From assembly GCA_944325885.1 (NCBI GenBank), contig CALVBT010000007.1, positions 1 to 64,000 on the forward strand: DNA of 64,000 bases. The letters are read 5' to 3'. The notes beneath the pieces were generated by a model. The model worked only from the letters and a program-made list of their open reading frames with translations, ran no database searches and was not told the origin of the DNA. Shown here piece by piece: positions 8,031 to 9,330 of this stretch. This DNA is from Candidatus Gastranaerophilales bacterium (lineage in GTDB: Bacteria > Cyanobacteriota > Vampirovibrionia > Gastranaerophilales > Gastranaerophilaceae). A program made the position numbers and the translations under genes. Within the stretch, counting starts at the first letter, position 1; each line of letters starts with the position of its first letter.

Positions 8031-9330
8031 TTGGACAAAATCAAAATACAGCAAAAAACACAGGCTCTTTCTGAGCAAACGGCCGGAGGATATGGCATTT
8101 TTTACGCTGTGTGACGGTGCTGTCCGCTCGGCAAAAACGCTCTCTATCATATACAAAATCCCGCAGATATTTGACTTTATCGGCAATGAATACTTAAAAG
8201 TTTTTTCAGGCTATTCAAAAAACACTGTCCGAAACAATGTACTCGTAGAACTACTGCCCTATTTAAAGAACTATCACGGCGCACAGGTAAAATTCAATTC
8301 CTCAAGCGGCGAACTGGATATAAAACTATGGGGCAAGCTCTACAGCTGTCTTGTTGTAGGCGGCGGAAAATCCGACAGCGATTCCACAATCCAAGGTGCA
8401 ACATGGGATTTTTGGTATGCAAACGAGCTGCCAAAACACCACTACAGTTTTTACAACATGGCACTTTCCAGACTCACGCCGGAAAACGCCAGAGCCATTG
8501 CTGACAGCAACCCTGAAAGCGCAAATCACTGGCTTTATACAGAAAAGATAAAACCTTTTCTCGACGGGGATGAAGCGACAAAAAGCATTTTTGACTACTG
8601 GCATTTCACAATGGAGGACAATGCGAACCTGTCAAAATCCTTTATTGAAAACCAGAAAAAACTGTACAAAGGTGTTTTTGAAGCAAGAAAAATAAAAGGG
8701 CTGTGGGTTGTGGCGCAGGGCCTTGTTTATGACACTTTTGACATAAAAAAACACACCTGCACTCACAGAGAGATTCTTGAAAAAATAAACAACAACGAAT
8801 TTTTTGAATACTTTCTCGGGCTGGACTGGGGATGGATTCACCCGCTTTGCTGCGGGATTTACGGTGTTACAAAAGACGGCCGGTACTACAAAATCGACGA
8901 ACTCTACGGCAGCAAAAAAACAGAAGACGATGTCATAAACTGGATACTCGACAAACAAAAAGAATACAAAAGGTTTTTCCGTTTTATAAACTGCGACAAT
9001 GCCCGTCCTGAGCAAAACCACAAGCTAAGACAGGCTCTAAACGGCATAATAGTTTATGAAAAAAAGCCAAAAGTCGTTGACAGCATAGGGATTGTACGCT
9101 CGATAATAAACTATGACAGGCTCGTGATAAACAAAGACCGCTGCAAAAATACTCTAAGAGAATTCGGCCTGTACCGCTACCCGAATCAGGAAGAAAGAAG
9201 TTCGCTTTTGATGGATTTGGACACGCCGCTGAAAGAAAACGACGACGCCATGGACGAAACCCGCTATGCGCTTAGCTTTTATGAAACACATTACAATTTT
9301 TCATATAGTCAACTGACTCCGACTACTTGA
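8020..9330 (+). CDS. Phage terminase large subunit (PBSX/XtmB type)
   Basis: 436 residues. The packaging ATPase has a modified Walker A GAVRSAKT at 33-40, typical of the PBSX group, and the C-terminal RNase H-like nuclease starts with LGLDWGW, which carries the first metal-binding Asp. Further family patterns are INCDNARPEQ and the late DDAMDETRYAL. The last nine or so residues (SYSQLTPTT) and the stop codon are provided by repeat copy C at 9299, so the original C-terminus has been replaced or extended. The conserved domains themselves appear complete. It cuts and translocates phage DNA into proheads. Confidence 0.9.
   Translation: MPIDWTKSKYSKKHRLFLSKRPEDMAFFTLCDGAVRSAKTLSIIYKIPQIFDFIGNEYLKVFSGYSKNTVRNNVLVELLPYLKNYHGAQVKFNSSSGELDIKLWGKLYSCLVVGGGKSDSDSTIQGATWDFWYANELPKHHYSFYNMALSRLTPENARAIADSNPESANHWLYTEKIKPFLDGDEATKSIFDYWHFTMEDNANLSKSFIENQKKLYKGVFEARKIKGLWVVAQGLVYDTFDIKKHTCTHREILEKINNNEFFEYFLGLDWGWIHPLCCGIYGVTKDGRYYKIDELYGSKKTEDDVINWILDKQKEYKRFFRFINCDNARPEQNHKLRQALNGIIVYEKKPKVVDSIGIVRSIINYDRLVINKDRCKNTLREFGLYRYPNQEERSSLLMDLDTPLKENDDAMDETRYALSFYETHYNFSYSQLTPTT

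Follow-up and report, generated by a model that had tools for sequence, protein, structure and literature searches.

A short mobile palindromic repeat at the 3′ end of a terminase gene in a Candidatus Gastranaerophilales genome

The locus

The window is a 64,000-nucleotide stretch of contig C7 from a 2.17 Mb Candidatus Gastranaerophilales draft genome (G000), which is assembled in 19 contigs and contains approximately 80 similar copies of the repeat described here. Its first 17.3 kb contain a phage-like structural cluster encoding a capsid, a major tail protein, a terminase, a tail fibre J-like protein, and a glycosyl hydrolase 108. Two genes and six repeat copies, all on the plus strand, are considered in the window:

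188..943, plus strand: LprI-like gene; probable native start ATG188; residues 4-77 repeat-encoded; orthologous match from near residue 80
197..418, plus strand: copy A, 222 nt or 74 codons, in frame in the LprI-like gene after codon 3
3013..3186, plus strand: copy B, intergenic, preceded by the stop of the capsid gene and followed by a terminator-like sequence
8020..9330, plus strand: terminase large subunit (TerL; Pfam Terminase_6N, PHROG terminase); 9298-9330 is repeat sequence
9298..9545, plus strand: copy C, 248 nt, with left end TTTTCATATAGTCAACTGACTCCG, right end GCGAAGCCGCCTCAGACA, and a nested hairpin module
16669..16790, plus strand: copy D, with a degenerate right end; it directly follows a stop codon, and 16799-16824 holds another left-end motif
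48542..48676, plus strand: copy E, the basic 135-nt form, intergenic
62724..62912, plus strand: copy F, with a 54-nt module; a TAG closes its frame

The TerL reading frame ends as ...HYN-FSYSQLTPTT-TGA. No stop lies between the conserved FYETHY motif and copy C, which starts on an exact codon boundary at position 9298 and contributes the last 10 residues and the TGA. This stop is located shortly past the left end, where copy C reads CTTGATGAACC compared to CTTGTAGAACC in the open subfamily. The sequence-only reading had proposed that the repeat supplies the C-terminus and stop codon of TerL; this is confirmed, and comparison with tail-less orthologues agrees. TerL is present in 22 of the 23 genus genomes; identity is 83-88% for most of the sequences and approximately 64% for two. 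None of the TerL orthologues of other genomes (22 of 23 genus genomes compared) carries the SYSQLTPTT tail; after FYETxY they have short, variable tails of their own, including AKKFVV, AYLFKR, GYKYAIMHY, GGY, CL, and others. A different repeat-like sequence (...CGACAAGTC...) is found directly 3′ of terL in L141 and L142 (genomes G018 and G016), where the tail is shortened to ESFL. Insertions may therefore be favoured at the terL end.

The LprI-like ORF is open through copy A, where the predicted peptide is ISYSQLTPTTCRTCAI; predicted repeat-encoded peptides include FSYSQLTPTT and ISYSQLTPTTCR. ATG188, 9 nt upstream of copy A, is in all likelihood the gene's own start codon, because the sequence before it (ACTGTATCATT..ATG) is conserved a few bases ahead of the start codon in several relatives. 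Taken as 197-418, copy A is flanked by ATGAAAAAT and ATATTCCGC and its reading frame continues into the signal-peptide region RKVYNLLLIS, and most LprI-like orthologues match only from approximately residue 80. Copy A is therefore an in-frame 74-codon insertion after codon 3 rather than a donor of the start codon. The gene had been described as beginning within copy A with a nearly identical peptide. Its frame is indeed open through the copy, but its start lies upstream and is conserved in relatives. The sequence TACTGTATCATT (window 165-190), which resembles a -10 element, immediately precedes ATG188 and also precedes several orthologous start codons, leaving almost no leader; the LprI-like mRNA may be leaderless.

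Coincidental read-through, with the true genes ending or starting elsewhere and the repeats as mere neighbours, is a very unlikely source of the tail on TerL and of the LprI-like N-terminal extension. Although TerL tails are variable anyway, the TerL frame is unbroken up to the repeat. At ORF 188, a conserved upstream region and start codon precede copy A and a signal-peptide region follows it; the LprI-like gene is therefore fused or broken, not adjacent to a repeat.

The repeat family

The basic repeat unit is approximately 135 nt, reads ATTTCATATAGTC...CAGACA, and can contain optional nested hairpin modules. Copies having a right end are mostly 135-384 nt. The left end, ATTTCATATAGTC, was defined from 84 copies. 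Approximately 84 left ends are present in G000, 73 of them with a body, and a genome-wide search at up to 3 mismatches returns 81 left ends compared to 0 for the reversed pattern. The left-end motif alone occurs at 133 sites in G000, and solo ends therefore exist. Such solo ends are 20 bases long (ATTTNATATAGTCAACTGAC) and lack the hairpin body, and some directly follow stop codons. By eye, the left end imperfectly resembles the reverse complement of the right end. An integron attC reading was dropped, as the repeat ends, again by eye, misfit the attC core.

The stem CCTGTGC/GCACAGG shows 24 compensatory cells, which are double changes that keep pairing, compared to at most 9 in shuffles. It is the only stem that covaries: covariation tested by hand in the outer stems of the repeat was absent, and RNAalifold on the repeat core recovers the inner stem only. 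An Rfam scan of the window returned no structured-RNA match.

The repeat is found in 18 of the 23 genus genomes, at 0 to approximately 40 or more scored copies per genome. Named relatives carrying the repeat are mostly Candidatus Gastranaerophilales MAGs. Exact left-end matches fall in Gastranaerophilales or in unnamed MAGs, one of them labelled Clostridia. The left end has no match in the viral contigs searched, and there is thus no sign of phages carrying the repeat around. The repeat is a short, non-autonomous, MITE-like mobile palindrome with dispersed copies and no transposase gene within it; no transposase was found for it. It is apparently an undescribed family of a known kind, and a limited literature search found no paper on such repeats in Melainabacteria or Gastranaerophilales.

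Genes entered by repeat copies

Where copies enter coding sequence, they have replaced the C-terminus and stop codon in TerL and UvrC, and they form in-frame internal insertions in the LprI-like, VWA, and MBOAT genes. The last two came from an ORF scan of all copies and bring the in-frame internal copies to 3 of approximately 84, each in a gene whose orthologues lack the insert. In the VWA-domain protein (C17:15257), 94 insert codons in the SYSQLTPTT frame separate the signal peptide from the domain, and orthologues in 22 other genomes match only downstream of the insert. The MBOAT-family protein (C5:94350) carries its insert in a frame other than that of SYSQLTPTT, with the usual TGA replaced by CGA; its orthologues are continuous across the insertion site in three genomes.

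The uvrC product (C6:34513) is cut short by a repeat copy and terminates in YNYFI-TAG. Past the copy, the DNA can still be read as the lost tail FNPNVQVV, and the orthologues shown all have FNPNVQ-type tails. Empty sites are seen in relatives for MBOAT, VWA, LprI-like, UvrC, and TerL. Other genes ending in or at copies encode a sigma factor with region 4, a Rex-like CoA-binding repressor, and CdhD-like, prismane-like, FliO-like, and GNAT proteins. ORFs that start in copies (C11:27003, which has no Pfam match, and C12:17107) were not counted as fusions. Among 78 hits at 66 loci in relatives, none is an internal in-frame copy with 25 codons on either side, and fusions are therefore rare.

The reading frame of the repeat

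The repeat could instead be a selected protein-coding module whose open frame is conserved to donate peptides to genes. Frame a is open in 22 of the 51 full-length G000 copies compared to approximately 4 expected per frame, 34 of these 51 have lengths divisible by three, and three insertions are in frame; each of these counts favours such a module. However, openness in G000 follows the TTGTAGAACC subfamily. Of 48 copies from relatives, 11 keep this frame open, hardly more than the 10 that are open in one antisense frame, and most carry stops.

Gene-end copies use all frames: 26 ORFs have their stop codon no more than 24 nt from a left end, and these divide 6/6/14 among frames a/b/c. Stops supplied by the element itself fall 2/3/1 in the same frames, and the right end, in antisense, terminates 4 further genes. 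Substitutions relative to the consensus are spread over the codon positions without bias (119/107/114). Synonymous changes account for 23% compared to 27% expected, and stops are in excess at 9.3% compared to 4.2% expected. Because all frames are used, codon positions show no bias, stops are in excess, and openness in relatives is antisense-like, the repeat ORF is most likely incidental and the frame itself is not selected. A coding module accordingly has only a slim chance of being correct. Constraint on the repeat is seen in a single hairpin stem and in its preference for gene 3′ ends.

These results divide the earlier claims about the frame. Copies A and B are fully open, as had been stated, but copy F, listed with them, has an in-frame TAG; copies D and E carry an in-frame TGA. 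A special in-frame role is contradicted by the use of all three frames, by the other frame in MBOAT, by the absence of a coding signature, and by the stops in most copies of relatives. The frame is not conserved in other copies, and its openness is a coincidence of lineage, while the fusions are real.

Probable tolerated insertion of a mobile palindrome

We assign a probability of approximately 0.86 to the reading that copy C is a short, non-autonomous mobile palindrome that has spread in Gastranaerophilales, and that the tail on TerL results incidentally from tolerated insertion and is no function of the repeat. A trans-acting enzyme would insert the repeat, and selection would remove harmful insertions. 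The copies left would be those in non-coding DNA, in C-termini that can be spared, or in frame where the protein tolerates them. Repeat copies are mostly intergenic and beside gene 3′ ends. Within 24 nt of a copy there are 51 gene 3′ ends compared to approximately 10 gene 5′ ends, an approximately 5-fold difference that is approximate because it uses simple ORF calls. The suggestion that insertion is tolerated near gene ends fits these counts. An assembly artefact, in which reads from different copies were misjoined at the repeat, is scarcely credible: a 19-contig draft with approximately 80 similar copies, some at or near contig ends (C15:29159, C10:84146, C11:1-154), might invite it, but at TerL, LprI-like, VWA, MBOAT, and UvrC the sequences on the two sides of the copy belong to one orthologous gene or to syntenic neighbours, an outcome not expected of a misjoin, and the ANK gene that adjoins terL in G018 and G009 likewise argues against misassembly.

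Orientation and movement

Repeat orientation is tied to the replication strand in G000. GC skew is negative in copy orientation for 69 of 84 copies (binomial P ~2e-9, with neighbouring copies not independent). Contig-wise orientation coherence reaches 69 of 81 copies, compared to a maximum of 65 in 20,000 random trials. In relatives, 26 of 41 copies follow the same relation to GC skew, a non-significant trend. Two-base target-site matches are slightly raised, at 14 of 48 sites (P ~0.014), three-base matches are at chance, and there is no 3-4 bp excess at that position. The UvrC and LprI-like sites fit a target duplication of 0 bp.

IS200/IS605-derived repeats (REP/RAYT, PATE) consist of hairpin DNA, produce no clear target duplication, and show an orientation bias with the replication strand, and the repeat resembles them in all three respects. 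It differs from them in that no Y1 transposase is detected in G000. A search for the Y1 transposase (PF01797) gave 0 matches in G000 and matches in 8 of the 23 genus genomes, with no link to copy number, and this enzyme was rejected as the partner of the repeat. The repeat may move by a single-stranded DNA route. A fuller account would make it a frame-tolerant selfish repeat that some enzyme moves as single-stranded DNA, on one of the replication strands and with a target duplication that is minimal or absent. Because the unit and its main modules (135 nt; +39, +54, +72, +99) are multiples of three, accidental insertions into genes would usually preserve the frame. This account as a whole is unlikely.

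Relation to known palindromic repeats

By behaviour, and with no relatedness implied, the repeat may be likened to Rickettsia palindromic elements, ERIC, and QMITE as a selfish palindrome whose insertion is tolerated. Open frames fused to genes have been reviewed for RPE, ERIC, YPAL, and Correia elements (PMC2229807). Rickettsia palindromic elements are palindromes of approximately 105-150 nt with many copies, located between genes and in frame in unrelated genes whose orthologues lack them (PMC2229807, PMC10969869). The sequence-only reading named them as a precedent, and the comparison is apt in behaviour, given three in-frame internal insertions in real genes whose orthologues lack the insert. 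The repeat is set apart from them, by description rather than by sequence, by its other lineage, by in-frame internal copies numbering 3 of approximately 84, and by an unconserved frame.

QMITE1 and QMITE2 of Coxiella burnetii are MITEs that sit at functional genes' 3′ ends and provide C-terminal residues and stops, with occasional in-frame internal copies (PMC5896051). The repeat likewise supplies C-termini and stops; the hosts are unrelated and the comparison is by description. ERIC and YPAL of enterobacteria are imperfect palindromes of 127-168 bp with contiguous open frames that are mostly intergenic and sometimes gene-fused (PMC2229807). They are listed with target duplications, whereas the repeat has none clearly and contains modular nested hairpins, again compared by description.

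The repeat extends in-frame palindromic insertions, best known in Rickettsia, to a deep, non-photosynthetic, Cyanobacteria-related gut lineage. Orthologous empty sites reveal the gene before and after insertion, and the repeat explains odd protein tails (TerL, UvrC) that automatic annotation may mistake for domains. Its replication-strand bias offers a handle on the movement of transposase-less repeats, a question shared with other palindromic repeats.

The phage-like cluster and a second repeat family

The phage-like cluster (window 188-17297; L234-L246) is single-copy in nearly all genus genomes, including terL, the capsid at 86-91%, and the major tail protein at 88-94%. Its gene order is identical in 7 of 7 genomes inspected. 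Downstream chromosomal genes are common to G000, G013, and G018, and pabB is shared by G000 and G018. One possibility is a domesticated prophage or a gene transfer agent retained by vertical descent. Within it, a minus-strand gene at window 5493-6368, a phosphoesterase by eye, is present, absent, or inverted among relatives and appears cargo-like.

Another dispersed family of repeats (GTGTGTTTGAGGCTGT..ACAGCCGAGTTGC) occurs at window 3259-3405, 6452-6617, and 58545-58711. A copy near 3224-3440 is flanked by two copies of a terminator-like sequence (3187-3223 and 3441-3477), as though this had been duplicated.
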